A stretch of DNA of 64,000 bases from assembly GCA_023078555.1 (NCBI GenBank), contig CM041197.1, positions 10,875,757-10,939,756 of the forward strand. Reading direction: 5' to 3'. Below are positions 3,001 through 62,812 of this stretch, one piece after another. Made by a program: the position numbers and the translations under genes. Under the pieces are notes generated by a model. It did not search any database. It worked only from the letters and a program-made list of their open reading frames with translations, and was not told the DNA's origin. Within the stretch, counting starts at the first letter, position 1. Each line of letters opens with the position of its first letter. This DNA comes from Ulva prolifera. Taxonomy: Eukaryota; Chlorophyta; Ulvophyceae; Ulvales; Ulvaceae.

Positions 3001-4220
3001 GCAACGAGGCAGAGCGAGAGCTCGCATGCTTCCTGGAGTTCCAGGCCAGCCAGCAGGGGCAGGTGCACCAGGCGCGAGTGACCGCGGCCAGCAAGCGCCT
3101 TGCGGACCACGTCGGCGGCCATGACGACGGCTCCGGCACGCAGATCGCGACGGTGTTCCTGCGGCTCTCCAGGCGAGTGGCCCGTGCCCCGGGCAGATGG
3201 CTCCAGAAGAAGCCGCTGTCCGAGGAGCGACTGGCTGCCCTCCCGGAAGGTGTGTCCTCCGCTCCTCACGCACACTCACACTGGTGCCCGGCGAGCATGC
3301 CCGCTTGTGTCTGCTTGGCGGTCTATGCGTGTGTCGCTGGGGCACTGTATGCGGTCGGCATGTACATGTGGGTGTCGACGGCGGATTGGGTTTCAGGGGC
3401 GAAGCGATGTCACTGGGAAGTCCACTGTGGGTGGGCAGGTGAGTGACGATGGCGTGCGCGGCTGCAGTGGCATCAGCATCACTGCTGCGTCGGCGCTGTT
3501 GGTGGGTGTGTGAGTGCCGACGACGGGCAGGACTGAGATGGCCCTGTTGCCCGAACTGCAGCGTTGCTGTAAGGGGGCATGCGATGCCACGGTTTGGCTG
3601 CGGCTGCAGCCGACGCACCGCCCGAACACCAGCATGGTGTTTGATGGGCACGTTCTCTGCCGATTCGGCTTGCACTGTGCGATGTTGTGAGTCGACACTG
3701 TGTGCAGAGCACCGCGCTGTGATGACTGACTTCACCGGTGTCGTGGTGGAGGCGGTCGTCGCCAAGGACGCCTGGCTTGAGGGCGCCGAGAAGGTCATGT
3801 TCATCGACAGGCGGCGCCTGAGGGCGCTGCAGGAGAAGGCTGCGCCACAACGCGCAACGCTGGACGACATCGTGGAGGACTACCCACGCGGCCCGTTCGA
3901 CGCCGACGAGGTTGACGATGAGGACGACGAGGAGGAGGCACCTGAGGATGTCATCGACATGGACGGCAGCGCGGCCGAGGAGGAAGCCGAGGCAGTCGCG
4001 CATGCAGACAGAGAGCTCCGCGATGTCGTCGAGGCCGCCGCCGAGATCGCGGCTGTTCCTGCTGACGCCATGGAGCTCGAATTGGCGATGGAGCTGGCGG
4101 AGGCAGGCCCGGAAGGCGCTCCGGCAGATGCCCTCGGACGCGACGCGGCACGTGACGACGGTCCGCCAGCTTTGGCGGACTCGGCTCCGGAGGTCCCGGT
4201 GGACCCGGACGAGCCGATGG
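3..4220 (+). CDS. YR element copy 1: tyrosine recombinase gene (5' end outside window)
   Basis: Multi-exon gene of a mobile element. Exons I can phase are 3-374, 602-928, 1056-1282, 2505-2817, 2898-3249 and 3708 to about 4220. The product looks like a tyrosine recombinase, which cuts and joins DNA through a tyrosine. The first catalytic Arg would lie in GVRSTFFQFWRWQDV (exon 2), box II in IRALRSSMVLRQVL and the tail in HAGAWVQNSNSAAMVHYFS with the nucleophile Tyr (exon 4). The usual box II His is not obvious. Exon 5 (VTGNLQDMETARMIQ) and an Asp/Glu-rich exon 6 follow. All exon boundaries and phases match copy 2 at 17124-20264, which supports the model. The intron 1283-2504 is enlarged by a Copia-type insertion. 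The subfamily (Crypton-like or other) cannot be assigned by eye. Confidence 0.6.
1297..2479 (-). mobile_element. Ty1/Copia-type LTR retrotransposon fragment (fossil)
   Basis: Reverse-strand remnant with the end of a Copia reverse transcriptase (VLVHVDDSAILAGEGG, LHFFLRQEVEQL) and its RNase H region (AEAEYMSAAMAVKEALWLRKLL, YCDNQSALHLLKR, KNIDMQYHFIRN). It lies inside an intron of the YR gene. The 7-mer GCAGCTC occurs at 1290-1296 and 2480-2486 and is a candidate target duplication, but I cannot delimit LTRs. The fragment is heavily reduced and broken, and is younger than its host element. Confidence 0.7.
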
Positions 4221-4265: not shown

Positions 4266-7200
4266 ATGAACGTCAGCCACCAAGCCGCCCTGGCCGTGAT
4301 ACAGTCGCGCACATTCCATCAGCACAGCCTCACAATACACCCCGAGACCGGCAAGTCCGCGGTGCCGTATCCGAGCTACAGCCGGGTGCCCAAGGCGCAT
4401 GCCGAGTTCGAGCTGGACCTTCTGCACCTTGCGCACGACAGCGGGGACACCCTCCTTGAGGACCTTGAAAAGGTACTGCATGGCACGCTGCCCATCATTC
4501 CTGCGCGAGCCTGCAATCTCGAGCCCTCCGTGCGGGAAGAGCTGAACCAGTCGCACATATGCCTCGTGATCGGCTGTCCCGACCGGGTGAAGCTGGGCAC
4601 GGACCATGCGCTCCGGCTGTGCCCTTGGCACATCAGGGGCGACGTTCGCATTCGGGGTACAGAGGAGGACGTGCGCCGCTGCACCAAGTGTCACGCGCTC
4701 CGCGACGTGCGGGAGTTCCGGCACGGCGCGGGAGTCGACGGTGACGGAGGGGTGTGCAAGAGGTGTTCTGTGGTGGACCACAACCGGAAGAACCCTGGCC
4801 GAGCGCAGCCGGTCCCCGTCCACCTGCCCGTCTCTCCACGGGAGGTGGAGTCTGGAAAGGATGCCGACCAGTCGTTCATTCTCGACCGGCGCGCGGCCAA
4901 GCAGCGCTCCGATGCCATCCTCCAGGTCCGGCCCGGCGAGTCCCTGAACTCTCCGTACGTCGCCTATGCGTTCTACGACAAGGATCGGGAGGGACATCTC
5001 CATCGCTGCGTGCGCATCGGCTGCCAGGGGGACGGCAAGCTCAAGGACCGCGCCGGGGCCATGCTGTGCAAGAAGTACTTTGATGTGCGTGTCCAGCCTG
5101 TCTGCCGCGCGCCGCTGCTGCCTTGTGACTTGTGTGTGATTGGTGTGGACCTCATGTTGATCCCGCGGGTTGGAGTTTGGCATTCCAGAGCTGGAGCCGG
5201 CGTGAGCGCCGTCGCTGGCCTGCAGGATGTGCGGGGGCTGCAGTTTGTACTCGTGGCCGTCGTGGACAACACGGGCAAGCACACCGGCAGGCTCATGTAC
5301 ATCCGACCGTGCAGCTCGTGCGGGCTGGGCTTGCCGCTGCAATTGTTCCGGCCCGGGCGCGTGTCATGCAGTCGCTGCATCGACAGGAACGCGGCATATC
5401 GGCGCCAGCGGGCGCCGCGCACAGAGCGTCCTGATGCCCCCGCAGGCGCACAGTGGGCGACGCCCGAGAACGCGCTGAGGCTGGTCATGGACCGGGAGGC
5501 TGGCGTCTGCAAGGCCGAGACCTGCACGGCAGAGGCTGCACGGAAGGGCGCAGGTCCCGAGGCTGCGCGGCGAGTGCTTCCATTGTGTCTGACGCACATG
5601 CCGGTGTGCCCCCCTGGCCACATGGATGCCAGCGACCTCTCCATGGTGCTCATTGCTATGTGTGCTGTCGAGTCCGGGAACATCTGCGTCGACACCGGGC
5701 CCCCCGTCAGTGTGCCATCTGAGACCCCAACCCGTGTGGCGATTCACCACGGCGACAGGTGGCGTTGCGAATGCAGGCATATTGTTGCATCAACCTCAAG
5801 ACGGGGCGCAAGATTCGCTGGTGCTCCACCCACGGTCAGTGGGAGCCACTCGCCTGTTTCAGCGGGTTTTTCCGGACGTGCCAAGGCCGCCGCCTGCCGG
5901 CGACGAGCGACGAGGCGGTGGAAGCGGCGCGCGTGGCTGCAGCCGTCGATGCCGCTGATGCAGGTCCCGATGACGCGGGCGAGGAGGATGCCTGGAACCC
6001 CGAATGGGGGCGGCAGTCGATGCTCGTGCACGGCCAGGACGCGTGTGCGCAACTGAAGGGCCACCTTGGAGATGGGGTCACCAAATGGGCCGCGCGCGTG
6101 CTCGGTCGCGACCTGTCCGCGATCGACGAGGAGGACAACTTCGTCGAGGAGGCGGTCAGAAAGCTGTACGATGACGGGCAGGCACCTCGCGAGATCACGG
6201 CGACCGGCACGCCGCTGCCGCCTGCTCCGGCTTCCAGGACGTGTGCCATTTGCGATCAGTACACGTGCCCGGCGGGCTTCGTCGGTCAGTCAGTGTGCCT
6301 CACATGCGCGGCGCGCGGCGAGGGCGCCGGGGGCCTCTCGATGATTGATGTGAACCACGCGCTCGTGACCGGGCTGCTGTATGGGAAAGGTGTGTGGCCG
6401 CAGCCGTGCCGGTGCATGTGTTTCGGTGCATGTGCCTGTGCATGTGTGTCCGTTGGTGCTGCTCCCATACCTGCTTGCCTGAGACTGCGCGAGGGATCCA
6501 CGTGCAATTGCAAGCTTGCTGATCAGCGTGCTTGTGGCCACCTCGCGGACCCTGTGCGCCGTATGAGCGATGCTTGGGAGGGCAGCTGGCGTATCCGAAG
6601 CTGCAATGCTCTGCGGCACTCAGATGTCACAGCACGTGCAGGCCGCATGATGACAAAGCCGGCGCGCGCCGTCCTTCCGCGGCTGTCGCTCATGCACGGA
6701 GTGCCGGCCGAGCATGCGGAAGCGTATGCCGAGCTGCGCAGCCGCAGGCACGTCACCGTGATCGGCACCGGTACAGGCACGGACGTGGAGCGGCGCTTCC
6801 GGCAGCTCAACAGTCAGAACAGCAAGCGGAAGGCACGGGCTGTGGCCGGGAAGCGCAAGGGCAAGGCACAGCGTGTGCTTCAAGATGACGATGGCGCTGC
6901 TCCGATGGACGGTGCGCCCGCTGACCAGCCGTCCGACAGCACTGCACTGTACATGTCTGGCGGGTGGCGCCGTGTCTGTGTCACTCCATGCGTCGTCTTT
7001 GCGCAAAGACTACATGCGGTGCCGGAAAAGGTAATGGGGCCTTTCAGGAAGGTGAATCGAGTGGCCTACCCCCCAGACCAACAGCCAGAATGCATGGCAA
7101 ACAAGCCCCACAAACACACACGTACACTGTGCTACTCTCATCGAAAATTCAGAAAAGCTGCGGGGTGGAGGGCCCACCTGCCAGATGCGTTTGTCCTGCC

Positions 7201-8969
7201 CTAGAGCAGAATCGAAGGCACCTTGTGGTGGGCAGGCCTACTGAGACCGCAACCAGCAAAGATCACACAGATCGGCTGGTATCCCGCTGAAATTCTCCTA
7301 GTGTAAAGATAGCCCACTGGCCTGTGAATCCACAAACTCCCGCCGGTACCGGAGTCTGTACCAGCCTAGTGGCGTTGCAGACTTCCAGACCTCGCGGCCA
7401 CCACGACAGCGTTCAGAAATTACAGCAGCACCACTCGGATGTGTTGGAATCTAATTCTGGCAAGCGCACCAACCATGAGTAGCTCGAGAACCTGTGTTGC
7501 TACGGCAGTCAACATGCCATGCCGGCCCACTCACTGCACCATATGCCCTGTGCGAGCATCATGAGACTCACAAAAACGCCCTCTATTCAACCAGGCCAAC
7601 CACGCCTGCTCTCGTGCACTGTAAATGCCCGTGCTTCTGGTCGTCGCACTTCCATGCATACATGCACATACATAGAGTGCGTGCTGGTGCGCTGCTTGTG
7701 CAGCCTCTGCCCACCTCTGATACTGCTTACGGTGATGTTTATGTTGAAAGGCCCCATTAGCGTTTCGGGCACCGCATGCACCCCTGCGATATATCACACC
7801 AATCCCGAGCGTGCACGAACCATCTGCATGCAGAGGGCGGGCAGCAGCCCGACGTGGTCCCAATCGCGGATGGAGTGCTGTTGGCGGTCGCCTGTGCACT
7901 CCAAGCACACGGGCGGGAGTGGCTCCAGGATGAGAATCAGACGCGCAACGCCATGGTCGACGCGGCTGCAGAGTTGCAGCCGTTCAGGCGGGGTCGTGGG
8001 CGCTGCAACTTTGCATCCCCAGACTCGATCCAGGCCCTGGCCAGGACGGGTGCCATCGCGTTGAGGGTCCTCGAGTGGCCCTCGAGGAAATTCCAACAGG
8101 CACGCCCCAAAGCTCAGCGCGTCCGCCCTTGACCCGGCTAAAGTTGTGTGGACGATCGCGCAGAAAAGTTGACCAGGCCTGGCGCCTTACCTGGGCACCC
8201 AGTTGTGTCGATCAGTGTTACCGCAGCGGGCTGTGAGTGCGACCTGGTGCAGGTTGTGTGTGCACGCATGCACGGCATGCGTGCCAGCAAGAAGGGGGGC
8301 TCTGAAGACCTCGCGGACTGGGCCTGGTTCGGTGGCGTCCGCATCGGAACAGATCGTGACACGGTCTTCGGCACCGTGGTCATGAAGAGCGGAAACACGA
8401 GTCGCAGGCTGGCCAGCGGCAGTGACACTCCAATGCACGCAGCCGCCGTGCAAGTGGCACGGGACTCCATCGCGCTGCTTCTCGCTCGGCTGCCGGCGTT
8501 GTTCACCTCCTCCCCAATGGGCCCCGTGCATGTGCTGACACTCGCACTCCTCCGGCAGTGCGGCGACAGCCTGGCGCCGGGGCTGGTGCAAGAACACACG
8601 CAGCCGACGCTGCTGATCCCGACACACCTGTTCGCTGCAAGCATCGCCCATCAAGAGCATGCTGGTTTTCATCTGTCAGAAGCAGTCGGCTACTGCACTG
8701 CACGCATGACGTGTGCCCTGATGGCAGCGACCTTCAGCGGAGATCTGCCCAAACCCCTGTGGACATGTATTCGCGGCACTGCCATCGCGATCATGACAGC
8801 GTGTGGCGCCGGCTTGCCAGATCACGCCCTCTACGTCGCCGGCGCAAAGGAGGCTTGCAAGAAGATCAAACGGAAGCTGCGTGACGCTGTTCTCCTGAAC
8901 CACGCCGGCGACCGCGGCGCCGGCTTTCTCATGGTTGCTGTCACAGACTCCGACGTGACGATGTCATAA
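4266..8969 (+). CDS. YR element copy 1: large Cys-rich zinc-cluster protein gene
   Basis: Long coding stretch downstream of the YR gene. A start at 4266 is possible, but it may be spliced to the acidic exon upstream. Introns supported by phase are 5085-5225, 5706-5776, 6390-6641 and about 6972-7833; the last holds a solo 758 bp element. The 5' half has repeated Cys/His clusters, such as RRCTKCHALRDVREFR with CKRC, RPCSSCG with CSRCIDR, RTCAICDQYTC with CLTC, and WCSTHGQWEPLACF. These suggest zinc binding, perhaps DNA-contacting. A basic segment follows (SKRKARAVAGKRKGKAQ). The last exon (from about 8148, stop at 8969) has no motif I recognise. Linking of the last two exons is uncertain. I recognise no family and assign no function. 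Confidence 0.5.
7017..7774. mobile_element. Solo copy A of the 760 bp TIR repeat
   Basis: 758 bp, diverged from the two copies at 9253 and 13114 but collinear along its length. It starts CGGTGCCGG and ends GGGCACCG. Its subterminal blocks GGTAATGGGGCC and GGCCCCATTAGC are inverted relative to each other. It is flanked by the 4 bp target duplication CATG (7013-7016 and 7775-7778). It sits in an intron of the YR element's Cys-rich gene. No protein is encoded. Its divergence suggests it is older than copies B and C. Confidence 0.75.
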
Positions 8970-9248
8970 ATGAGGTCCATCCTGGGACACAATGCATGAC
9001 GTGCAAGTACGCACATGAGTGTGGTGGCCACGGGCCCAACTCCTGTTATGTTAGGACATATGCATGATCATATGCATGAGCATAATCCAGCACAATCCAT
9101 GTGAGGATTGTGTGCGGTCACTGTGATTATGACCGCTGTAGACTTGACTGATCGGTGGCATATAGTCATGTGCCTCCAAGTCTTCTGTAACCATTCTCTT
9201 ACAGTCTTACGTGGTTCCTGTATGGCCTCACTGCATTACAGTACATTC
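8970..9248. other. Spacer with possible 3' UTR
   Basis: No gene seen. A TGTAA motif at 9186-9190 could be the poly(A) signal for the gene ending at 8969, although it is rather far. The rest is unremarkable, lower-GC sequence with short ATGCAT and CATATG palindromes. Confidence 0.3.
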
Positions 9249-9252
9249 CTTG

Positions 9253-10012
9253 CGGTGCCATGAAAAATAATGGGGCCTTTGCATAACCTGAATCCAGCAG
9301 GCCAGCCCACACCACACCAGCCCAAACGCACAGCAAACAAGCCCGAACCAAACACAGCCGGAATGTGTTGCATCCACAAAAAAATCACAATTTTTCGGCA
9401 AGCGTGAGCACACCTGGCTAGTGTCTGAGTCCCTGCCTTAGTGCAGCGCTGAGGGCCCCTCGTGCTGGCCAGCCCTACTGAGACCACAATCAACCCCCAC
9501 CACTCAAATCAGCTGGTCTGACGCTGCAACTTCTACAGACCACAGGCCACCCACAGGCCTGTGTCTCCACAAACTCCCGCCGGTACGGGACTCTGTACCT
9601 GTCAGGTAGTGGTGCGGACGCCGGCCCCTCGCTGCCACCGCGACAGCGTTCAGAAATTACTGCAGCACCACTCGGATGTGTGGGAAGTAAACTCTGGCAA
9701 GCGCAGCAGCCACAGGCAGCTCGGATGTGAGTGTTACCAGCGCAGTAAACAGGCCATGCACTCCCTCTCACTGCATCATATGGACTCGTGCGAGTAACGT
9801 GAGACTCAGCAAAGCACGCTCTATTTCACCAGGCCATCCAGACCTGCCCTCGTGCATTGCACATGCTTGTCGTTCTGGGCGTCGCACTCGCATGCATACA
9901 TGCACATGCAGTCTGTGCTTGCTGGTGCGCAGCTTGTTTAGCGCCTGCCCACCTTTGATAGTACTTAGACTGATGTTTTTGTTGAATGGCCCCAATAGCA
10001 TTTTTCTGACCG
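9253..10012. repeat. Terminal direct repeat B of element 1
   Basis: 760 bp, same orientation as copy C at 13114-13873. I noticed one substitution between them. Its own ends are imperfect inverted repeats: it starts CGGTGCCATGAAAAATAATG and the complement of its end reads CGGTCAGAAAAATGCTATTG. No coding potential is evident. Confidence 0.9.
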
Positions 10013-10288
10013 TATTCATATTTCCAAAACACAAACGGATAGGCCGTTTCAGCCCTGTCTTTGTGGAGACATCGGGGATGCTGTGCATTGTAAGAGGCAA
10101 TGATCAGGCGCCGCCGCAACCGGCGCCAAGCCGGCCGGCCGGCCACCCTGCGGCCGCGCCTGTGCACAACCACTCATCACGTAACCCATTGAGCCTCGTA
10201 TATCAGGAGCATCGGGGTTCTATCCGACACTCGCGCATCGCACAACGACCTCAGGCCATACACATGATGCAATCACGGCATTCTTGAT

Positions 10289-12863
10289 TTGTGTGCGTGT
10301 AGAGTTTTTTTCGTGCCTGTTGTCGCCATGTCTATCCCGCCGGTACCACGAGATCATCGCGGATTGTGTCATTTTACACCGGAGACGTGCAAGCAAGCGT
10401 GTGCTTGTTTCTTCAATGCGTATCAGGAAGAAACTGGGGAAAATCCAGACAAGTGTGGCCTGCCGACGTTTGGCAGTGGTTGCAAAGGGGACCCGGTGGT
10501 CACCAAAGCATACCAGCGATTCATCGACCAACACTGTCGAGATGGCCGCTTGATCAGCCAAGATCGAGGCTGCACAAGGAAAGCGTATGTACACCTATTG
10601 CATGATCACTGGGATTCCTACTCCCGGACACGAACATGCCCAAGAAAGAGCAGGAAGAAGGGCATCAACCTCACTGAGGCTGAAGGCAGGCACTTGGCCA
10701 GATTGTTGGGCACTCCAGTCAACAACGGTGGCAGCTACGAGAGGTATGCCAGTATCGATGAAGCCATCACGAAGAATGCATCTATTCGGAAGTTGGCGGA
10801 GAAATCTAACGCCTCCTGCCCGGTGCTGCATGCATGGCTCTTGGAGCTGTGCCCTGACATTCTGAGGTACAGCCCGGATGACTGCATCGCCAGACACACC
10901 GAGAGTACACTCAAGAAGCGGCGCCAGTGCGCCGACGTGCTGCGAGGTGATGTCAAGTGGTTTCAGCGCAACCCAACATACCCGTCCCGCCGTGTCAGCA
11001 TGCCCAATGAGGCCAGCAACAAGAAGGATGTGTACTGGAAGCAGGAGTGGTTTGGAAATCACACGTTCATGCTAGATGCGACATCCTTTTGCAACAAACA
11101 GGGCGAGGCACATGAGGAGCATGGGTGTGTGTACAGCCTCACTGATGAGGTGTTCCCACCCAGGCTTGTGAGAGCAGACATGGCCATCACCCAATCGACA
11201 TCGATTATGGTATACTGCGTCATACACAAGCATCTTGGCCTCGTTGTTGGACCTGACATCATGTTCACTGGCACAAAGCTACCACAATCATCAATGGACA
11301 AGGAGCAGCAGTTTGCAGAGGCAGGGGTCAAGACATGGTAGGCATCTCAAATGGTTGCACTGTTCTTGTGCACTTGCAATTGCTCTTCATGCATTCGTGC
11401 TGAGTGTGCAGCACCTGAGTGTGCAGGTGGACCAAGATGAATGAGGCTGGTGCCTTTGATCAGCTAGATGCAGAGTACAAGTATATACACAGAGATCAGA
11501 GCACTTTCCACGTACGATCTCTCTCAGCTACTTCCCAATCCTGATCACAGTTGGCTCACCGTGCTCACCAGTCAAGTAGCTGGTGTATGATGCAGTGCAT
11601 ACCACCTTGCACACTGCACCTTGCATTTGATGCTTGATGTACACGTGCCAGTCATCTGTGTCTTTATGGTGCAATCTCATCAGGCCCCACCCACTTTTCA
11701 TCACCAGCTTGTCTTTCTCTGCATCTATGTCATTTCTCGTGCATCTTTTCTCATTGAAGTGTTGTGGGCCATCGATCTCGAAGCTGGTGCACCGGTCGCC
11801 ATGCACAACCGTTGCATCTATGCTCATGCGTTTGTTCCCCGCTACGCAGTTGCAATCCCACACGATCGCTGCGGCCCCGTCAATCTTGAGCACCTCTTCC
11901 GCAAATTGCTTGACATACTTGGAGTGCGTCGCACATTGGCTTTGGTGCGCGGGGCACATGAATCTTGATCGCCGTGCGGACTTTTGCACAGTCCGTACCT
12001 TCATGACTTTGTAGCAGCCGTGGTATCCACAGTCACAGCGGTAGCACATGCTAGGATTACGTGTTTGTCTCGGAAATCGCTCTGTACATCTTGCCTCGAG
12101 GAGTTCCGTCATGTGCTTGTCGGCCATGGCCAAGCCCTCAGTCCAGGTGCGTTCCTTTCTGACCCGCATGCCTGCGCAAAATGACCACATAGTGATGTTG
12201 CAGAAATGTACCGGCGAGCGCCCAGGTGGCTTCGTGGCCGTCGAGTACCAAGAGTGGTTTAGGCTGAGGGCTCTGCCAGCAATGAAGAGAATAGCACGGG
12301 AGAACTTTCTGGAGTACGGGGGCCCGGATTGGTTCAGCTACAGCACCTATTCCTCGCTGTGTGGGGCAGTTGGCCATGTACACAGTGGGATGAACCCATT
12401 TTTCATGGTGTCTCAAGACTGTGACCCGAGGCATAGCATGAAGCATTTCTGGAAGGCCATCGACGCAGGCAAGCGACTGACCGGCAACACCATTGACCGC
12501 AGAGACATTGCAGCAGGTCTGGAAGGACACATTCCCATTGATAAGGTAAGAAATTATGTGCCCACAGCTCCTAAGGTCCCAGATTCGCTGCAGTTTGCAA
12601 TCGAGAGCGTTTTTGCTCCAGTCAAGCGTAGATACCAGAGCTTGTTGCATGGAAGGGATCAAATCAGTCCAGGAGACATGGTTTGGGCCATTGATAGGGC
12701 GTTTGCAGAGGTGGCAACCCCTGCCACCATCAAGAATTGCTTTGATCATTGTGAAGGCAACGTGCGGATTTTTTGCGGCAAAGAGGATGAGTCTGTGATG
12801 CTGGGGGGGGTCAAGTATCATTGCACCCACGGCAACTGGCTCCCAAAGGATAGGAGGGGCTAA
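10289..12863 (+). CDS. Element 1 DDE-type transposase, split by a nuclease-bearing intron
   Basis: Exon 1 runs from 10289 (ATG, or the in-frame ATG at 10328) to about 11326. Exon 2 runs from about 12204 to the stop at 12861-12863. Exon 1 has a Cys-rich N-terminus, a possible helix-turn-helix region (EGRHLARLLGTP onwards) and the first putative catalytic Asp in HTFMLDATSF. Exon 2 has a second acidic block in FFMVSQDCDPRHSMKHFW and a Glu block in PDSLQFAIESVFAPVKRR. This order recalls the IS630/Tc1-like fold (D, DN..H, PD..E). Exon 2 aligns with exon 2 of the diverged transposase at 22850-23806 from its first residues, which supports the intron position. The donor (GTCAAG at 11327) is weak, so the exact splice is uncertain. 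Two separate genes are the alternative. Confidence 0.6.
11528..12190 (-). CDS. Antisense PD-(D/E)XK-type nuclease inside the transposase intron
   Basis: Intact 220-codon ORF on the opposite strand, filling most of the putative transposase intron. Its ATG lies 13 bases from transposase exon 2. The N-half has a Cys cluster (CYRCDCGYHGC, then MCPAHQSQC) suggesting a small zinc fold. The C-half has the order expected of Vsr/DUF559-like PD-(D/E)XK nucleases: Asp in MSIDATVV, then SFEIDGPQHF, then Lys in DAEKDKLVMKSGWGLMRLHH. Such folds cleave DNA, so a role in transposition, homing or double-strand-break stimulation is inference. A homolog lies in the same place in element 2 (21241-22920). No TGTAA signal is apparent on its strand just downstream. 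Confidence 0.65.
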   Translation of the reverse strand: MWSFCAGMRVRKERTWTEGLAMADKHMTELLEARCTERFPRQTRNPSMCYRCDCGYHGCYKVMKVRTVQKSARRSRFMCPAHQSQCATHSKYVKQFAEEVLKIDGAAAIVWDCNCVAGNKRMSIDATVVHGDRCTSFEIDGPQHFNEKRCTRNDIDAEKDKLVMKSGWGLMRLHHKDTDDWHVYIKHQMQGAVCKVVCTASYTSYLTGEHGEPTVIRIGK

Positions 12864-12966
12864 CTGTGACTGTTTTTTTTTGCATTTTTTCCCTGAATTG
12901 GATGCTGCTGTGTGGTGAGCGTGATTTCGTGGACTTGTGTTGGTGTAGCATGCAGTGATAGCTCCT

Positions 12967-12971
12967 TGTAA
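12967..12971 (+). terminator. Candidate poly(A) signal TGTAA for the element 1 transposase
   Basis: TGTAA, 104 bases after the transposase stop codon. TGTAA is the established green-algal polyadenylation signal. Position and strand fit, but a 5-mer is weak evidence alone. Confidence 0.4.
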
Positions 12972-13113
12972 ATCAGGAGCTGCCTCAATGTGTGCATGAT
13001 CTCCCGAGTCTCTGCTTTGCATACATGTTTGTGTTTTATGTTTGACTGAACGAATTCTCCACATTGACATCGACTGTAGTATGCACATGCACAAGCTTAG
13101 TCATGCGTGCACA

Positions 13114-13873
13114 CGGTGCCATGAAAAATAATGGGGCCTTTGCATAACCTGAATCCAGCAGGCCAGCCCACACCACACCAGCCCAAACGCACAGCAAACA
13201 AGCCCGAACCAAACACAGCCGGAATGTGTTGCATCCACAAAAAAATCACAATTTTTCGGCAAGCGTGAGCACACCTGGCTAGTGTCTGAGTCCCTGCCTT
13301 AGTGCAGCGCTGAGGGCCCCTCGTGCTGGCCAGCCCTACTGAGACCACAATCAACCCCCACCACTCAAATCAGCTGGTCTGACGCTGCAACTTCTACAGA
13401 CCACAGGCCACCCACAGGCCTGTGTCTCCACAAACTCCCGCCGGTACGGGACTCTGTACCTGTCAGGTAGTGGTGCGGACGCCGGCCCCTCGCTGCCACC
13501 GCGACAGCATTCAGAAATTACTGCAGCACCACTCGGATGTGTGGGAAGTAAACTCTGGCAAGCGCAGCAGCCACAGGCAGCTCGGATGTGAGTGTTACCA
13601 GCGCAGTAAACAGGCCATGCACTCCCTCTCACTGCATCATATGGACTCGTGCGAGTAACGTGAGACTCAGCAAAGCACGCTCTATTTCACCAGGCCATCC
13701 AGACCTGCCCTCGTGCATTGCACATGCTTGTCGTTCTGGGCGTCGCACTCGCATGCATACATGCACATGCAGTCTGTGCTTGCTGGTGCGCAGCTTGTTT
13801 AGCGCCTGCCCACCTTTGATAGTACTTAGACTGATGTTTTTGTTGAATGGCCCCAATAGCATTTTTCTGACCG
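13114..13873. repeat. Terminal direct repeat C of element 1
   Basis: 760 bp repeat nearly identical to B (9253-10012). It is followed by CTTG at 13874-13877, matching the CTTG before B. See B for its inverted termini. Confidence 0.9.
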
Positions 13874-13984
13874 CTTGATCTGTGCATTGCCGACGTACGA
13901 CCTGAGTGCTCCACAGATAACAGCTCTGCAGCCCACTAGCTAGCTTGATGAATGCTGCGCATAGGTCCTTGCTTATAACAGACG

Positions 13985-16958
13985 ACGGCCGAGCGTCTAC
14001 GGGCGCACGTCGCGGGCGGCATTGCCCCGGGCGTCGGCATCGCGCCTTCGCGCCTGTTCCCGGACGAGCGCGCCGTTGCCGCCGCCCAAGGCGAATGCTC
14101 CGTCGCTGGACCGAGCGGTGACGGCGCGGGATCGTCGACGCAGTTCGCACTCACGAGTTGGGACGGCGGGGCGGTCCCGGCCCCTCGGCCAGCATGCCCG
14201 GTTCCCCCAGCAGCGCGTCCACTCGACTTGGCCGTCCCCGCTGCGGCAGCGTGTCCCCTCGGCGCGACAGGCCACGCCTCCGCACCGGCAGTCGAGGCCC
14301 ATCCCAGAGCAGCGCGTCTTGGCGCAGGAGCGCAGGGCTCCCATGCGGCAGCCTCGGAGACGGCTTCCCAGGCTCCCCTTGCGGCTGGGTACCCCCTAGG
14401 CGCAGTGTTGCGGGCCTCCCCTCAGGCGGAACAGCCCCCCAGAGGCGCAGGCCAAGTGCCCCCTGAGGACGCGCAGCCCCCCGGCACTACACAGGCCCTG
14501 CCTGTGGTGGTGAAGCAGGAGGGGGCCGGGGCTGCAGTTCGCGGCGTGGCTGCACGCCGCTACGACGGGCCGCCGATCATCATATCGTCCAGTGATGATT
14601 CTGGCGATGATCCGGAAGTCGTTTTGGCCGCCCCTCCAGACGTGCCTCCTGCGTCCGGCATCGCGTCGGCGACCTCACCTGAGGCAAGTACCGCCTCCCG
14701 CTCTGCCGGACGCTGCTCGGCACCCCGTCGATGGGCAGCCTGTGGCCGCTGCAGCGCACGCCCCGCCTCTGCCGTTCATGGGTGTCCAGGAGCACGTCCC
14801 CGTCGTCGCAGAGCTCGCAGTGGGCGGCGCACCGGCGCACGGCGCTGCACCGGCCGCCCAAGTGGGGCAGCCCGCTGTCGTTCTCCCTAGCGCACAGCCC
14901 GCACCACCGCAGGGCAGGGGAGCGCTCCACCTGGCCGCCGCCGTCATGGGTGTCCAAGGGCCCGTCGACGCCGTTGTCCACCCGCCGGAAGCCGCGCCCG
15001 TCGAGCCTGCAGCGGCGGTGCAAACTGCTCCGCCTCCCGCCGGGGGCGGCAGCCGCACGCTACCGCGCCGGACGCCCAGCCCGCGCCACCGGCGGCCGGA
15101 CATCATGCCGGCGGGGGCGCCGTGAATCTCGCCGCCGGGGCCTTGCAGGGTGTTCGAATGCAAGCGCGAGTGGAAGCGTCATACCGTAAGTTTAGTTGGG
15201 CGAAATGTTAAGTATGTGTGCGGAGTACTTAGCACATGACGCCTGAGATCTGGGATCACACCTGCATGGACAGTATCTGAGTCAGATACTTGAGACATGA
15301 CCTTGTTCGACCTATACAGAGAGCTGGAATGTGTCTTCTCATTCGCGGGCTGGTTGCTGCCACGTGTCACCCCGTGCGTGCATCCGCATGTTCACATGCC
15401 TTGGACGCTACGAGGCACTTTCACAACACAGGGCGCCGTTGACGCCGCCGCCCACCCGCCACAAGCCGGGCCCGCCGAGCCCGACGTCCCGGGGCCGCCC
15501 CTCACCAGCCTGACGGCGTCTCAGCACGCCGTCAAAATCAACGAGTACGTGTACGACCGTTCCAGCCTACCACCGGACGTGTACGGTGAGATCATGACGA
15601 TCCGGCCGCCGGTGCGAAGCCCCCTCCACCCCGCCTGCTATTGTCCTGCTGTCACGTATGCCGTGCACGATGCGTGCGTGGCGGCGGTCCGCTGTGCCCT
15701 CGCCTGCCACCTCGCACCCCCTGCTCCGCGGTCCCACTGTCAAAGCGCGGGACGCCGTGCAGGACCTGCTCGAGGCCGTGACCGGCGGCCCGTTCCATGC
15801 GGTCCTACTCCTCGCCTCCGGCGGCAGGGGCAAGACGTGCACCTGCGAGGTGATGTACAACGGTGCCAAGCGCGACCTCGGACGGCGCGCGGTGGCACGC
15901 TGCACACACAGCGGCCAACTGGCCGCCACCATACGCTCCGAAACATTCCCGCGCCGCTTCAAGGTCGGCTCGCTCACGCTGCACATGACCCCGCCGTACA
16001 GCGACATCGCGGCGGCGCGGAGCGTCGCGAGCATCGACCTCCTGTTCGCGGAAGAGTTCACCGCCATGTCGAACCGCCTCGCCGAACACAACCTCAAGGC
16101 GTGCAGGGCTGCGAAGGAGTCGTTGAACCGGGCGGCGCGCCAGCTGCTGCAGCCCGAGCCATACGCCGACCTGCAGCAGCCGCTCGCTGGCCTCAAGCTC
16201 GTCGCCAGCGGAGACCACCTGCAGCAGATCGTCGCCCCGGGGGGCGTCGGCCGCGTCGTCGACGACCCCGCCAGCGCAGACCACGGCCTCGCTGTGCCGT
16301 ACAACCCCCCCGGCAACATCGGAGACAACGTCTGGGGTCTGCCGTCCCTGCAGAGCGCGGCGACCAACGTGCTCGTCGTCCTCGTGCACGGCAACCATCG
16401 CCTTGTCGGGCGGAAGCACGAGATGCACTGCACGGGGTGCGCTCCCCCCTGACCGCCGTGGCCTCCCCTCAGGCGCGGCCCTCATGTTTGCGTGATCTTC
16501 ATGCTTGCATGCATGATGTCGCCGTGCGCGGCTCTCACTGCGCGCCTTGTGGAATGAACGGCGTCCGCGGCGGGCGCCGCCGCCCTGCTGTGACCGACGG
16601 CCGCCTTGTCCCGTGTGTATCCTCCGATGCATGCTGCAGGCAGAGCGGCAAGATCTCGCACGAATGCATGCTGCTACTCCTCGGGCGGGTGGAGTGCATC
16701 GACAGGCCGGTGTGGTTCTACGAGGCGGCGTGCCTGCCCAACTACCCGCAGGTGGTGCCACCGGGCAAACCGTACCTGCCGTTCACCATCGTCGCCGTCG
16801 CGACCGCGGCCGAGATGGAGGAGGTGTACTACGACCGCCTGAGGCCACTGGCCAAGTACCGGGACGCGTATGACCTGGCGCCGGCGCCTCCGGCCGAAGC
16901 GGATGAGCCCGCGCCCAAGTCTGTGAACATTCCCTTGGTCTGCAGCTGGCACCAGTGA
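13985..16958 (+). CDS. YR element copy 2: Pif1-like helicase gene
   Basis: Multi-exon gene upstream of the YR gene, with approximate limits. The N-terminal exon (to about 14681, possibly ending at a GC donor GAGGCAAGT) is Ala/Pro-rich. It carries VVVKQEGAG and PPIIISSSDDSGDDPEVV, which resemble a SUMO acceptor site and a SUMO-interacting motif. Further Pro-rich exons lead to NEYVYDRSSLPPDVYG, ending at about 15585. The helicase exon (about 15700-16440) has a P-loop (LLASGGRGKT), a Walker B-like IDLLFAEEFTAMS and LKLVASGDHLQQI, which resembles motif III of Pif1 helicases. The last exon starts at about 16641 (SGKISHECMLLLLGRVECI) and ends at TGA 16956-16958. Such helicases unwind DNA during replication or rolling-circle transposition; a role here is inferred. 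Exon limits in 14680-15430 are unclear. Confidence 0.55.
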
Positions 16959-17123: not shown

Positions 17124-20100
17124 CGCTTCCTGCCGATCGTGAAGAGCATTCGGATGTACATCAAGGCCTCGCCGCTCGGCGGCACTCGCAAGATTACCCC
17201 CCTCACCCAGGGCCAGATCATGCGCGCAGTGGAGTCGATGTATGTCGGGGGCTTCGGCATGATGCAAGTGCGCCACCATGCCCTCTACCGAAGCTGCTTC
17301 GCGGTCATTGTGGCTGCGGCGCAATGCTAAATCGTATCGGCAGCCTTGGCCTGTCAGTCAGCATGTCCAAGGGCTGCACTGTGATGTCGGGCACGGTGCC
17401 CGAGTGTGTGCGCTCTACAGTAGTGTGCCAGCCGTTCTGGAAGACATCCTTGTGCTTTGCTTCTGTCCTTGGCTAGCCGTTTCAAAAGAGGCCACGTATC
17501 ACCCTGTGTTGATGTTTCGAGGCGCGCGTGGTCTTTGCCTTGACTGCGATCGCTGGCCTGCGCACCACATTCTTCCAGTACTGGCGCTGGGAAGACATGG
17601 AGCTGATCAAGGTCCCCATGCTGCAAGGCGAGGTCAAGGATGCGACGGAGGAGGTGCTCCACAACAGTGACACGCAGATGTGGCGCCTGCCAGTGTGGGT
17701 ATCCGCAGTGACTGCCGCTTCCGCCGCGGCTGTCGGGGCTGCAGCACGTTTGCTCTCCAGCCTGCTGCCTTGCTGGATATTGCTGATGTGTTTTACTGCT
17801 ACGCACCCCGGCCTTTGGCGGTGCTGCGGTGGCGTTGCTGTGGTTCGGCTGCGTGTCACGTCGTCGCTGGCGGGCACCCTGTGTGCGTGATGCCGCTACC
17901 AGTGTTGTGGTGCCGCTATCAGTGTCGTGGATGTTTGTGATCTTCCCTATGCATGCTGCCGCTGGCAGCCTGCGCTGCTGCGGCAACTGCTGTGACGGAA
18001 GGCTAACCGGAGTGACACTGTGCAGATGGGCTTTGCCTTTGTTAGCCACCACGCTGTCAACAAGTGCCCCAATCACTGCGGGACACCGGTGCTGGCGCTC
18101 GACCCGACGGGGCAGCGCATGTCGCCCTTGATGCCGGTTGTCGGCAGCCTCCTCGTTCAGCTAGGGCTGGTGATGGGCGTGTATGATGCGGAACAGATCA
18201 CGCGCCTGCCGTACAACGCGGCCCTCCGCCCGAAGCCGCATGCACAACATTGGTGTGCATCGATCTCTCCTTCGTTGTATGGCTCTGCGTGTGACGTAGT
18301 GTCCGCATGTGGTTGCGCTGGCATCATGCATGATGCAGCGCTGCTTCCCTCGCTGTGGCGTGCTAGCGCTGAGCCCATAGAAGTTCACATGTGTGACCCG
18401 CTGTAGGTATGTGATATGCACACAGCATGACCTGATGTTCATGCCATTCATCAACGTGCCTGGCGTCCGCATTTCCTGGCTGGTCGCGATGTGCGGCCTA
18501 CTGTCCGAACCTGAGGACGGGGCGGAGCCGCACGGCCGGGGCGTGCGAATGGGACCTCGCTCACTGCGGTTGTCCATGGTGCTGCGCATGGTCCTCTGGC
18601 GCATCACGTCGGACCGCGCGCCTGACGAGGTCCTCATACGCCACCTCGGCACGTGGGTCCAGAATGCAACGGTTGCAGCCATGGTGCATTACTTATCTAC
18701 CCGCGGCGCGGCAGCAACTCGGGCTGGCATGGTGCGCACTCCAGGATTTGATCGAGGGTTGTAGGCTGCTGTGCAAATGAGCTCAACACTGGCTGTGGAT
18801 GGTGTGGTAGACTGCTTGCGCTCTATGCAGTGGGGATGCACCACTGTGCCACTGTGGGCACCTATCGCTGGCCGCTGCAATGGGTGCATGTGCTTGTGTG
18901 CCGCAGACAACGATTGCCGTGCTTGTTGCTAGACAGGCGCCCGCGGTGGTGACAGCAGCTCGCCGTGCAGGCACAGGCCAACATCACGGGCAACGCTCAG
19001 GGAATGGAGCATGCACGCACGATTGCGCGCATCGGCGGGGATGCCGTTGGGCCCAGCCTACTGGCCACCCTGCAGGAACAGCCCGAGCGCGAGCTCTTTC
19101 TTTTCATCGCGTTCCAGAAGTCCAAGGACGGCGCCGTGCAGCAGGCTGTCCTCACAAAGATGTCCAAGCTCCTTGCGGACCACGTTGGGGGCCACCTGGC
19201 CGGCAACGGCGGGGCGGTCGCGTCGGTGTACCATCGCATCATGCGGAAGGTGGCACCGTATCCGGGGAGGTGGCTCCTCCAGAGCGCGATGCCAGCCCAC
19301 CGCCTCGCCCAGCTCCCAGGTGCAGCACTACATCTCTGTGCGCGTGTGTTGCCATCCCGTGTTTCTGTGAGTCCACCTGCTCTGCTGCATCTCTGCATGC
19401 GTGTGTGTTTTTGTGATGTGTTCGGCCCGTCCGCCTGCTCTGCTGCAACTCTGCATGCGTGTGTCGCCATCCCGTGTTTCTGTGAGTCCACCTGCTCTGC
19501 TGCATCTCTGCGTGCGTGTGTGTTTTTGTGCTGTGTTCGGCCCGTCCGCCTGCTCTGCTGCAACTCTGCATGCGTGTGTCGCCATCCCGTGTTTCTATGA
19601 GTCCACCTGCTCTGTTGCATCTCTGCATGCGTGTGCGTTTCTGTGCTGTGTTTCGGCCGGTCCCCCTGCTGTGCCGCACGTTTGCATGTGCGTGGTGTTG
19701 TGTTGATTGTTTGTGCGCGCGTAAGGTTTGGGGTCACGGTGCTGACAGTGGCACCGTGATGCAGAGCGCGACGCCGAGGTGGTCGGCAAGCTCACGCGTG
19801 CGGTGGACGCGGCGCGCAGCGTCAAGGACAAGTGGCTGAAGGGCGCCTTGGCTGTCACCGGCGTGGACAAGGCGGGGCTCACTGTCGAAAAGCGAAGGAC
19901 GGAGCTCGCACCTCCGCGCACGACTGTCGACGACGTCGAAATCGACCAACCGCACGGACCGTTTGGCGAAGACAGGGATGGCACCACCTCAGACAGCGCC
20001 TCAGACAGCGCAGACGTTGAGATGCTGGACTCCGACGGTGAAGATGCGGGGCCGATGGATGACACGGAGCAGGACCGCGACGGTGAGCTCGCAGAGCTCG

Positions 20101-20264: not shown

Positions 20265-20843
20265 ACGGCGAGGCCGTGCAGGCCTCTGAGGAGAACATGG
20301 CCCGGAAGGACACAACGGTGCGCAGCTGCTGCTTCAGACCCGCCTGCAACCCGCCGTCCATGCCGCCTGTGCCGGACCCACTGTATGCGGTGGGCATGTG
20401 GGTGTCGACGGCGGATTGGATTTCAAGGGCGAAGCGATGTCGCTGGGACACCGCTGTGGGTGGACAGGTATGTGACGATGGCGTGTGGGGCTGCAGTGGC
20501 GTCAGCATCATTGCTGCGTCGGCGCTGTTGGTGGGTGTGCGAGTGCCGACGACGGGCAGGACTGAGATGGCCCGATTGCCCGAACTGCGGCGTTTCTGTA
20601 CGGGGGCATGCGATGTCACGGTTTGGCTGGGGCTGCAGCTGACGCACCGCTAGAACATCAGCATGGTGTTTGATGGGCACGTTCTGTGCCGATTCGGCTT
20701 GCACTGTGCGATGTTGTGAGTCGACACTGTGTGCAGAGCACCGCGCTGTGATGACCGACTTCACCGGTGTCGTGGTGGAGGCGGTCGCCGCCAAGGACGC
20801 CTGGCTTGAGGGCGCTGATAAGGTCATGTTCATCAACAGGCGG
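20265..20843 (+). pseudogene. YR element copy 3: deletion derivative
   Basis: 20265 to about 20370 matches 880-985 of copy 1. About 20370 to 20843 matches about 3335 to 3820 of copy 1. Everything between is missing, and both break points fall in introns of copy 1. The copy retains part of a recombinase exon end and the start of the acidic exon (MTDFTGVVVEAV, DAWLEGA). It abuts the stop codon of copy 2 and is cut off by element 2. Confidence 0.7.
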
Positions 20844-23806
20844 CGGACAAAGGCATCGGCAACGTTGTATTTGTCAGGCGGGGGGAATGCCTGCCTGTGT
20901 ATCTTCACAAGGACTGTGGCCTGTGCCCATCCTCAAAAGAGGTATCCAAACAGCACTACCTCCTCCTCGTGTGTGCTGCCATGAACAGTGCCACCAAGCT
21001 GTGGAACAAGCAGAACGAGACACCTGAGAAGCGTAAAGCGGACAGCCAATTTGAGTTCTGGTATGATCTGATTCCCAAGATGCTGACCCAGGGGGACTTG
21101 GGAGATGAAGATCTGGAGGAGGTTCGCGCAAAGATGGCGACCCGCAGATGGGTGGTGTGTCACCCATCTACACATGCTAGGACTTGACAGCGCGCGTGTT
21201 GATCATGTTGATTTAGTCACAAGGGTGAGCTCGTTACATGCTACACCATCATCACATGCCTGTCGAGCAGAGCATTGAGGTGTGTCACCCATACAGGGCG
21301 CTCTACATTCATGTCAGACCAACCTATGCGGGCAAACTGCATTCCTGTATCTCTCACCAGTCTGGCCTTCATGTTGTCCCTGTCCACAGACGCATTGAGG
21401 CTCTCATCGAGGCTCATACCATACTGTCTAGGTTTATGCTCATCATCTACGTGTTGTGAGATACATCTCACTAGGCGCATGCTGGCGCGGCACACCTGTA
21501 GACACCTAAGGCTGCAGCGCAGACCACAACATGTGGCCTCGTAACTTGTACTGGCGTCTGTACAACGCCACTTATACATTATATACCACGTTAATTATTA
21601 TTATGCACATATGTGCACGCAAAATCTGTACAGCGTCCTGTACACTCGAATCACAATGATACGTGTATGCCAGACACCTTACTGGACGTGGCTACGAGTG
21701 CACCAACTCGGCCAGCTTACGCAGCTATGCTTAGTTGGCACTGTATTATATCGGATTACCTGGACCAGCGCATTAGCGGTCATGTCCTACCCAAGTTGTC
21801 ATGTCCTACCCAAGACTGGTATCTTACAGACCGGGTCGCATGCAGACCTCCCATGTGTATTTGTGAACTCACGCATGTTAGGCGGTCATGTCCTACCCAT
21901 GTCCTACCCAAGCGGTCATGTCCTACCCAAGACTGGTATCTTACAGACCGGGTCGCATGCAGACCTCCCATGTGTATTTGTGAACTCACGCATGTTAGGC
22001 GGCAGCCTTGGGGCTTCGCATGCATGCCCGCTGTTAGCAGGCACGGCTCCCACATCGAACACGAAATCAGTGTGCGATCAGCCTTCAGGCTCCGAAGGCC
22101 ACATGCTTACTTTCTCCCGCAGTTACTCGGGATCTGGGGTCTGCGCTCTGCGCGATCCGGCGAGGCCAGCTCTGACAGGGGGATCGACCTGGGCGCACAC
22201 ACCATCGGTATTTATACCGAGCGCTTGCTGGGACCAGGCACGTTTTTACAGTGATCTGGTTGGGGCGCCACCCATTCGTGCATCACATTGTATTGAATTC
22301 TTGCCTCTTTTCGCATCTGTCTGTTCTATTTCTGTCTGCCTGTACAGCCTTTGTGCTGCGGCGTTTAGCCCATCTTATTCAGCTGTCCTCGCGCAGCACC
22401 GTAGGTCCGTTCCGCCCCGGCGACTCAGAGACCTCTACACTACGCCATCTAATCCTAGCACAAGCAATTGCGAGACGGATGTGGCATGCAACGGTAGCAT
22501 AACAACATCACATCGAGTGCCTGCGAGAGGAACTTGCACACAATTTACATACCCTGCATCTATGCTCTGCACAATCTTCTTCGCCTCGTCTAGCATATGG
22601 CACTCTTGCACATTCCTACCGTTCTTCTGCTCACATACACTACATTTGTACACACCATCCGCCAGTAGTCGACGCCGTGTGTATTTCTTAGATCTGACCA
22701 GCAAGCAACCACAGCCATATGCTGCAACCACTACAAGCTGTGATGGCTCAGGGAAATCCCAGTATGCCCTGGGTGGCTGCTCTCTACCTAGTATGTGCGA
22801 GAATGGCTTGGGCAAGTCCACTATGATGTCTCCCTCATTTGCAGGCAAATGATCCTGCACAGCAACATGCTGACTCAAGATGGCAGAGATGCAGATGGCC
22901 TGGTGAAAGAAGAATTTCAAGCTGTGCTGCAGTATTTAATCGTGCCGCTGATGCAGAAGGAGGTGCAGAGGTTGGTGGCCATCAATGCCCCAACTTTCTC
23001 TGGCAAATCCATGCAAGCAATTGTGGACGAGTGGAAGCAGAAATTGCAAGGGGCCTATGCATGCTTGAAGCAGCAATTGTGGCATTGTAAGTGCCCAAGC
23101 CCCAAACAGGTCAAGCGTGTGACAGAATATGCACAGAAGACAGCAAGGATTGCTGAGGAGAAGCAGAGGAGGGCAGAGGCTGCAGGAAGAGCAGCAGCTG
23201 CTACAAGAGAAGCAAAGATGCAAGGAACAACATATGCACTGGAACTACAACAGAGCTCACCTATGTATGCAGCATATGCAAGCCAAATCATGAGTGATGC
23301 AGAAAGAGTTGTGATGGTGGCAGAAGCAGATGAGAGGCATGCTAAGGCAGAGGCAGAGGAAGCCAAAGGAGCTGCAGCTGCAGCTGAGGCAGTGGTACAG
23401 AAACTCTGGCTTGCTTGGGAGCCTTCAGCTATACCTTATTTTCTGTCTATGGACAATTGCAAAGCATATAGCTTCTACATAGGGCTAAGCAAGGACTGGT
23501 TAGTGCCAGACATCCACATGCTCCAGGCGCGCATCACTCCCCCAACAACACCGGTCTCATACTGTATGCCGTGATCATGTGGCAGCTCGATTGATGGTGG
23601 TGCTTGCTCTGCAGATGATTGCAATCCCACCACATGCACCTGATATCCACCAGATACCAGAGCATGCTATTGGGGCTACAAAGACACATGAGACACGGGT
23701 ACTCAACGGACTGAGACGATCAGTCAAGAATCCCAGCCATTATGTATACGAGACGGATCGCGGCCTGGCTCGGCCTGTTCCTGTTGAGGTGTGCAAGCCT
23801 TTCTGA
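20844..23806 (+). CDS. Element 2 DDE-type transposase (partial)
   Basis: The first exon is open to about 21150 and includes CLPVYLHKDCGLCPSSKEVS and QFEFWYDLIPKMLTQG. The main exon runs from about 22880 to 23553. A 61 bp intron follows (23554-23614) and the last exon is 23615-23806. The second catalytic block is AIPYFLSMDNCKAYSF, with the DN typical of IS630/Tc1-like enzymes. The third is PPHAPDIHQIPEHA, matching PP.SPD.NPIE. Before them is an Ala/Glu/Lys-rich predicted coiled coil of about 100 residues (IAEEKQRRAEAAGRAAAATR onwards) that element 1 lacks. The N-terminal part is shorter than in element 1 and the first catalytic Asp is not evident, so the 5' part is probably lost. A TGTAA lies 38 bases after the stop. 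Confidence 0.5.
21241..22920 (-). pseudogene. Element 2 antisense nuclease, interrupted by a solo LTR
   Basis: Reverse-strand relative of the nuclease at 11528-12190. The N-half (22920 down to 22440) keeps the Cys pairs (YGCGCLL, KCSVCEQ) and EAKKIV. The C-half (21446 down to 21241) keeps VDRDNMKARLVRDTGMQFAR, which corresponds to DAEKDKLVMKSGW in element 1. The expected FEIDG block reads LGLDG, so the presumed catalytic Glu is Gly. A solo LTR with a 5 bp duplication splits the gene just after LGLDG. The gene is therefore doubly inactive by appearance. Confidence 0.6.
21452..22439. mobile_element. Solo LTR (fossil of an LTR retrotransposon)
   Basis: 988 bp, starting TGTTGTGAG and ending CCTCTACA (TG...CA). 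It is flanked by the 5 bp target duplication CTACG (21447-21451 and 22440-22444). It contains a TATTTATA box near 22211 and an internal tandem duplication of about 105 bp (about 21778-22003, block CATGTCCTACCCAAG). The orientation and family (Copia or Gypsy) cannot be told. It is a single LTR, as left by LTR-LTR recombination, and is younger than the nuclease it interrupts. Confidence 0.8.
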
Positions 23807-23844
23807 AGTTGCAGCGTATTCTACAGTATCACGTTTAAAAGATT

Positions 23845-23849
23845 TGTAA
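23845..23849 (+). terminator. Candidate poly(A) signal TGTAA for the element 2 transposase
   Basis: TGTAA 38 bases after the transposase stop. Same signal and strand logic as in element 1. Confidence 0.35.
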
Positions 23850-23896
23850 GCAAACGGCTGCGTTCGTGAACTGTTTTCCTCCTCGCACGGATCATC

Positions 23897-24604: not shown

Positions 24605-24700
24605 CAGCGGGAGGATGCCAACGTCCTCGTTCTGTTCGTCCACGACAACCACCGGCTTTTCGGGAGGATGCACGAGACGCACCGCACGGGGTGCGCCGGA
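24605..24700 (+). pseudogene. Fragment of the YR element helicase
   Basis: The translation ANVLVLFVHDNHRLFGRMHE matches TNVLVVLVHGNHRLVGRKHE in the helicase exon at about 16366-16440. Only this short block is conserved. The surroundings (24250-25260) show no other gene. Confidence 0.6.
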
Positions 24701-61300: not shown

Positions 61301-62776
61301 TATGTCAACATTCACTGCAGAGGAAGGAGACCTTCGGCTTGTGGACCAGGTCGCGGTCTCCAACTGGGAGCTTGGCCGCCTCGAGATCTTCTTCGAGGGC
61401 TCCTGGAGCCAGGTCTGTGCACGGGAGTTTGACGGAGCAGACGCGGACGTCGCCTGCCGCCAGCTCGGCTTCGGCGCCGGCTCCGTCGGACCGACCCGCG
61501 CCAACGGGCTCCCTGCGGCAGAGCAGCGACTGGTCTTCCCGGTGGTGGCGCTGACGACGCCCGGCTGTACCGGCTCCGAGGTGTCGCTGCTGGACTGCGC
61601 GCCGATGCCATCCTTCTTGCGGCGATCCGATTCCCGCGACTGCTTCGGTTCCACCAATCCGGGACTGACACTTGCCTGCGTCTCTGACCCAGAGGATGGT
61701 GAGCATCTCCTGGAAGTCATTCTAGGGAGCCTCTGTTTCAACTGTTAACACATGCATGTCAGAGTGTAGGCAGACCCGGCCACCCGCATATTTACTTCGG
61801 TGAGGACCCCACTAGTACATACAAAGCGCTCTGTTCGGGAATGCATGGGGCCAGTGGTCTTGGCCGGCCAGTGGTCTTGGCCCCTGTCTGCGTATGCTGT
61901 CTGTGTTTTCAAGGCAGACTCTGTGTTTTGCAGCAGACTGTGGTGACATTAGTCCGTACAGATGCGCATGTCGTCTGCTGGACCAAGCACATGCTGTCAG
62001 TGCAGCCTTGATACCTACATCAACTTGGGTATTCTTTCCGTATGTAGGAGAGGAGGGTGCGGTGCGCCTAACTGATGGTGGAGGCGGCCAGGAGGGCGAC
62101 CCGGCCTCTGGCCTTGGGATCTTGGAGATCTTCCATGCTGGCGCTTGGGGAACGGTGTGCGAAGGGCAGCGTGGCTCTCGCCCTGATGACTACGGGCCAC
62201 CCCTGACAGATGTACGCGCCACACTGGACTGCCACACTGGACTGCTGCACGGCACCTCTATGCATATGGCCAGTGCCTTGGAACGCATCCTTGTCTTCCC
62301 CATTGCTACCACAGACTCGCCTGCACATGGGTACACTTTACGGGCCGTGACTTGAGTAACTGTGATATGCCTCACACTCGAGTAATACTAGCGCTCTCTG
62401 AAGTATGTCATCATGCTCTGCTACACGCTTGCACACCCGAGTGTGTTCCAGAACCACATGTTGCTGTGTGCTGTTTAGCCACCTGCACGTGATGCTACAT
62501 CATTGTCCGAATGCCAATGCTGATGTGGTTTCGGTGGTGTGTGCAGAGCACCCCGGCCATCATCTGCCGGCAGATGGGCTTTGCGGACGGCACCTTCCAA
62601 GATGTGCGGTCGATCCCCGCCGATGTGACGCTGCTGCCTGCCTGGCTCGGCCGCATCTCCTGTGTGGGGAACGAGCCCACTCTTACTGAGTGTGATGACC
62701 TGGAGTTTGGCAACACGGAGACGTGCGGCCTCACGCAGCGCCTCATCTGCACTGGCAGAGACGGCTCTGGTCCAGG

Positions 62777-62812
<36 letters not shown>

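Follow-up and report, generated by a model that had tools for sequence, protein, structure and literature searches.

ISL2EU is a eukaryotic DNA transposon that carries a nuclease of its own, a YqaJ enzyme of the PD-(D/E)XK type, which to our knowledge is not nested in an intron. The TnsA and TnsB genes of Tn7 are organised as a same-strand operon, and I-Bth0305I is a Vsr-like homing endonuclease of phage that is encoded within an intron. Endonucleases are also carried by the mariner elements of algal viruses, where one is of the EcoRII type (E 1.1), the nucleases are listed as 3′-portion proteins and the duplications are TA (Bao and Jurka 2013, PMC3627910). That paper also describes TnsA of Tn7 as a restriction-type endonuclease paired with TnsB (PMC3627910).

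Here we describe a locus of the green alga Ulva prolifera at which a putative DUF559/Vsr-type nuclease gene likely lies antisense within an intron of a transposase-like gene. The analysis covered a stretch of 64,000 nucleotides (the window, 64 kb), and all coordinates are positions in it. The nuclease is of a different family from that of ISL2EU. The locus resembles the algal-virus mariner elements in that a eukaryote-linked DNA transposon would have an endonuclease beside its transposase, and weak scores occur there too (PMC3627910). It differs from them in the predicted antisense placement of the nuclease within an intron and in a putative duplication of 4 bp, and no methyltransferase turned up. 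As in Tn7, a restriction-type endonuclease and a transposase would share one element (PMC3627910). Unlike this locus, Tn7 is bacterial and has no intron. A nuclease beside a eukaryotic transposase is not new in general, given that mariner elements of algal viruses are already described as carrying endonucleases (PMC3627910). A transposon with a nuclease is thus of a known kind, and what is probably new is an antisense, intron-filling nuclease within a unit of direct repeats ending in terminal inverted repeats (TIRs). The literature searched (open-licence PubMed Central) showed no case of a nuclease gene that takes up, in antisense, a spliceosomal intron of such a transposase-like gene.

Two plus-strand ORFs (10289-11341 and 12048-12863) had been read as the halves of a transposase gene, with a minus-strand ORF between them. 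A search of splice combinations, together with a reading of the gap between the plus ORFs, led to a three-exon model with compatible phases, the predicted spliced product of which is 584 aa long and free of stops. The features of this model are as follows.

10328-11337, plus strand: exon 1 of the transposase-like gene; ATG start, candidate first D at residue 250, no Pfam match
11338-11426, plus strand: intron 1, 89 nt, GTAGGC..GTGCAG, no CTNAY site found
11427-11511, plus strand: exon 2, 85 nt, in phase on both sides, codon score best in the predicted frame
11512-12203, plus strand: intron 2, 692 nt, GTACGA..TTGCAG, one CTNAY site at 12159
11528-12190, minus strand: putative nuclease ORF, 220 aa, intact, with a Cys-rich N-terminal half (C52, C54, C59, C79)
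12204-12863, plus strand: exon 3 of the transposase-like gene, bearing D437 (candidate second D) and E499 (candidate E)
12967-12971, plus strand: TGTAA 3′ of the stop codon, which we take to be a possible polyadenylation signal

A single intron had been proposed at 11327-12203. The nesting that it implied is kept in this model, and its boundaries, which used a GTCAAG donor, are replaced by two introns and the exon at 11427-11511. Joining GTAGGC (11338) directly to 12204 is ruled out, as the phase is broken. The minus ORF is likely nested in intron 2 of a multi-exon plus-strand gene. The presence of introns and of TGTAA past the stop codon is in keeping with a green algal host.

The intact 220-codon reverse ORF noticed between the transposase halves is indeed present on the minus strand, and it takes up 663 of the 692 nt of intron 2, with 16 nt remaining on the donor side and 13 nt on the acceptor side. 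When the 692-nt intron was dinucleotide-shuffled 1000 times, an ATG-initiated ORF of at least 215 codons arose only once (the longest being 218), and since such a length is rarely matched the ORF is more than a chance event. It shares the codon bias of the plus-strand gene: its GC content by codon position (0.50/0.445/0.632) agrees with that of the gene (0.529/0.447/0.615), and, under a codon model for which the gene served as training set, its frame beats 99.75% of 3624 background window-frames, with scores by thirds of 0.112, 0.095 and 0.162. Downstream of the nuclease gene there is no TGTAA nearer than 10374.

The minus ORF had been assigned to the Vsr/DUF559-type nucleases by the order of its motifs. 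In a Pfam scan its sole match was PF18741 (REase_MTES_1575) over residues 116-177, at E 0.11 and 13 bits versus a cut-off of 38.2, and there was no DUF559 match. A DUF559 profile was assembled from 74 sequences, namely ycjD and 73 of 80 loci (seven were left out because of stops in the trimmed range). Against this profile the minus ORF reached an hhalign score of 28.4 (probability 33%), which was matched by none of 300 shuffles and none of 96 window ORFs, the maxima being 25.98 in 200 shuffles, 19.78 in 100 further shuffles and 17.06 in the window ORFs. A profile of MTES_1575, from 23 of 38 loci, gave a probability of 1.3%, was equalled by 1 of 100 shuffles and yielded an alignment that passes through the expected motifs. 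The residues of the candidate catalytic motifs are D125, E138, D140, G141, Q143, H144, D156, K159 and R172. They are collinear with the pattern D ... E-x-D-G-x-Q-H ... D..K/R ... G ... R of DUF559, REase_MTES_1575 and Vsr nucleases, in which the position of K159 is R in most relatives (D..R), and MAFFT alignments did not put D125 on the family D. Unlike those nucleases, the Ulva protein has a sub-threshold Pfam score, a long Cys-rich N-terminal half and a eukaryotic transposon context. The family assignment is thus moderately supported by the DUF559 profile and the motifs, while the curated Pfam cut-off is not reached, and the minus ORF is likely a DUF559/Vsr-type PD-(D/E)XK nuclease.

AlphaFold with the single nuclease sequence gave an unusable model (pLDDT 36.7), and with 25 DUF559 relatives it gave a weak, family-guided model of a 124-residue part (pLDDT 62.9), which adds little because it is guided by the family it should test. 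Of the 67 matches that Foldseek returned for that model at E 10 or below, none reached E 0.001, and among the 50 matches listed I-Bth0305I (rank 3) had the highest TM-scores, 0.41/0.49, at E 3.9 and from a model that is partly circular. In PHROGs the nuclease had two weak matches, to families whose function is unknown (E 0.13 and 0.17), and in a sequence search of the PDB it matched one ribosomal protein (E 1.1). NCBIfam gave no match.

Both genes lie between two long direct repeats, which had gone unreported earlier together with their flanking 4-bp duplications, and a diverged copy of the repeat stands alone upstream.

7017-7774, plus strand: solo diverged repeat copy, flanked by CATG on both sides and with terminal inverted repeats of about 30 bp
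9249-9252, no strand: putative target-site duplication CTTG, left copy, 4 bp
9253-10012, plus strand: direct repeat of 760 bp, left copy (CGGTGCC...CTGACCG), whose terminal inverted repeats are weak
13114-13873, plus strand: right 760-bp direct repeat, one mismatch versus the left copy
13874-13877, no strand: CTTG duplication, right copy, 4 bp

The interior between the repeats is 3.1 kb and the whole unit 4.6 kb. The solo copy is 73.6% identical to the repeat over 754 aligned bases, and its TIR score was matched by none of 5000 random pairs; the TIR score of the left and right repeats is weaker, being matched by 20 of 5000. At the inner edges of the 760-bp repeats the flanks do not match, unlike the outer CTTG copies. 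Given the outer match, the inner mismatch and a solo copy with TIRs, each 760-bp repeat seems to be a TIR unit, the pair and its interior having been inserted together, and 9253-13873 is probably one recently inserted mobile element. That the event was recent is suggested by the near identity of the repeats, which gene conversion could also keep alike. Direct TIR units that enclose genes may have arisen as a composite unit, or by a circle recombining into a solo copy.

The locus had also been described as a conserved two-gene transposon, with a diverged second element at 20844-23850. The mobile element is supported by the direct repeats and the 4-bp duplications, and the conserved pair is not, as the second element fails: its homology is unsupported, and with it falls the ground for calling the pair conserved. 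The homologous nuclease said to occupy the same place and strand there is at chance level in tblastn, phmmer, Smith-Waterman and hhalign comparisons, and the scores of the alleged alignment of transposase exon 2 are likewise those of chance. In detail, tblastn gave no convincing match to the locus at 20844-23850, and in a phmmer --max search of 1546 window ORFs no match in that region was better than E about 12. Of 500 shuffles, 85, 93, 351, 342 and 67 scored as high as the respective Smith-Waterman alignments, and with hhalign 13 to 45 of 60 shuffles did so. The hhalign comparison comprised seven rows, one of which (x1) was disregarded because it was in the wrong frame and contained stops, and the same piece in its proper frame is the one that gave 67 of 500 by Smith-Waterman. 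Hence 20844-23850 was rejected as a homologue of the element, having scored at chance level in each test.

The region may nevertheless hold genes, judging from its codon usage. Two of its plus ORFs look coding in their predicted frames (percentiles 0.989 and 0.993), and 21244-21579 on the minus strand has a codon-score percentile of 0.953, the other supposed nuclease piece one of 0.71 and the last exon piece one of 0.782; wrong frames with stops in the same region also score at percentiles of 0.97-0.997. The plus ORF at 22795-23574 (percentile 0.993) has a stretch that looks like a coiled coil by eye and no Pfam match above cut-off. A 105-bp direct repeat lies at 21781-22002 in two copies that are 98% alike, and it may mark a nested insert. 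Sequences at 3343-3816 and 20379-20845 are 92% identical, the match ending at 20845, where the claimed second element starts, which may reflect an insertion or a breakpoint.

Other repeats in the window include a tandem repeat of about 115 bp in three copies (19328-19688) and two collinear blocks (39386-46605 and 55799-63995) that are about 74-87% identical over several pieces and represent an SRCR gene cluster duplicated in tandem; SRCR domains were found in four of ten window ORFs scanned. Two ORFs that look helicase-like by eye share a short similar stretch (16364-16442 and 24618-24696), and the first of these ORFs has no Pfam match.

In the 64-kb window there is one copy only of the element with its nested ORF. 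Relatives elsewhere were sought by single-protein scans, which detect close relatives only. Viral contigs yielded no relatives with the nuclease, exon 3 or exon 1 as query, no match to the TIR pattern and no match with a DUF559 query. Bacterial and archaeal genome contigs, searched with the nuclease only, yielded no relatives, a phage collection gave one match (E 0.9) that was taken as chance, and plasmids searched with the nuclease and the spliced protein gave none at E 10.

Our preferred reading, which we hold tentatively and with somewhat less than even confidence, is that of one 4.6-kb element with direct, TIR-ended repeats, a three-exon transposase-like gene and an antisense nuclease gene in intron 2 that is accessory in role. 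The plus-strand protein would move the element by acting at its outer ends. The nuclease would most likely be an accessory enzyme that cuts sites free of the element or just vacated by it, and repair from an element-bearing copy would then keep or spread the element; this role is proposed by analogy with the endonucleases of algal-virus mariner elements and with TnsA beside TnsB in Tn7. Transposon-borne TnpB/Fanzor nucleases are thought to have a comparable retention effect. As the two genes overlap in antisense, strong transcription of one should lower the other. An unlikely alternative, though the one that fares best, is that the minus ORF is a passenger, that is, a nuclease gene that was inserted into the transposase-like gene, is spliced out and has no part in movement. 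The single copy, with no conserved second element, and the distance of the nuclease gene from any polyadenylation signal are in keeping with such a passenger, while its intact frame, the codon bias in all three of its thirds and the way it fills the intron all speak against it.

The preferred reading assigns movement to the plus-strand protein, which had been called a DDE transposase, a designation that found no Pfam, PDB or profile support, its D/D/E residues coming from reading by eye. The spliced protein has no Pfam match at E 10 and no PDB match by sequence, and neither part of it matched a transposase family; the exon-3 ORF has one sub-threshold Pfam match, to a KH domain (E 0.078), and one weak PHROGs family (E 0.045). 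Profiles of DDE_3, rve and DDE_Tnp_1 were built from 15, 17 and 11 of 30 loci each (the rest were duplicate, short or contained stops), and of 60 shuffles 23, 18 and 28, respectively, scored as high as the spliced protein, the DDE_3 profile, with its 15 bacterial sequences, being a weak test of this protein. The surroundings of the candidate residues D250, D437 and E499 recall Tc1-like enzymes. The catalytic residues of the IS630-Tc1-mariner group are spaced as DD(about 30-41)D/E. Membership of that group is not supported, as 61 residues separate the candidates D437 and E499, the flanks are CTTG/CTTG rather than TA and no profile of the family matches. With no family or PDB match, and with profiles that do no better than shuffles, we infer from the motifs and the mobile context only that the plus-strand protein is transposase-like.

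This bears on whether the nuclease could be a direct cutting partner in the manner of TnsA, with the cutting of the two strands at each end divided between the plus-strand protein and the PD-(D/E)XK enzyme. Tn7, whose DDE transposase has the restriction-type endonuclease TnsA as its partner (PMC3627910), provides the precedent, and both Ulva genes are inside one unit. Such a partnership is nonetheless improbable here, as the plus-strand protein lacks DDE profile support, the nuclease is DUF559/Vsr-like rather than TnsA-like (judged by the DUF559 and MTES_1575 profiles) and there is no second copy to show the pair kept together.

It is quite improbable that the locus is three separate genes with no large intron, the ORF at 12048-12863 using its own ATG. 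That ORF does have an in-frame ATG at 12048. The extension from there to 12203, however, scores as non-coding (-0.12), while the N-terminus of the antisense nuclease (0.103) and the start of exon 3 (0.258) score as coding, such that the coding signal switches strand at the predicted exon 3 boundary. In addition, exon 2 agrees in both phase and frame, with a codon score of 0.184 in the predicted frame versus 0.031 and -0.031 in the others.

It is very doubtful that intron 2 is itself mobile, a spliceosomal intron whose antisense homing-type PD-(D/E)XK gene cuts intronless copies of the transposase gene; equally doubtful is what would follow from it, a parasite within a parasite that splicing conceals from the host gene. 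The minus ORF lies inside the predicted intron, and the idea draws on the tight fit and on I-Bth0305I as the nearest, non-significant fold match. Unlike the intron of I-Bth0305I, the Ulva locus has no group I intron match (no group I/II ribozyme was matched in Rfam up to E 1 in 9000-14000) and its ORF is on the opposite strand. Just as doubtful is a non-autonomous LTR retrotransposon with captured foreign genes, for although the long direct repeats and the 4-bp duplication suit an LTR element (4-6 bp being expected), the repeats end in CGG..CCG with inverted repeats and not in TG..CA, TIRs of 30 bp are present in the solo copy, the interior ORFs scanned have no Pfam match to reverse transcriptase or gag, and no primer-binding or polypurine tract was seen by eye.

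The roles of accessory nucleases in eukaryotic transposons are mostly an open question. The nested antisense layout predicted for the Ulva element would couple two functions within a short stretch, in that splicing would drop the nuclease from one message and the opposite strand would make it, and the paired genes could regulate each other. If intron 2 were to move alone, it would be a spliceosomal intron behaving like a homing intron. If the nuclease is active, the element would provide a compact case in which retention, target choice and strand cutting can be set against one another as roles of such an enzyme.
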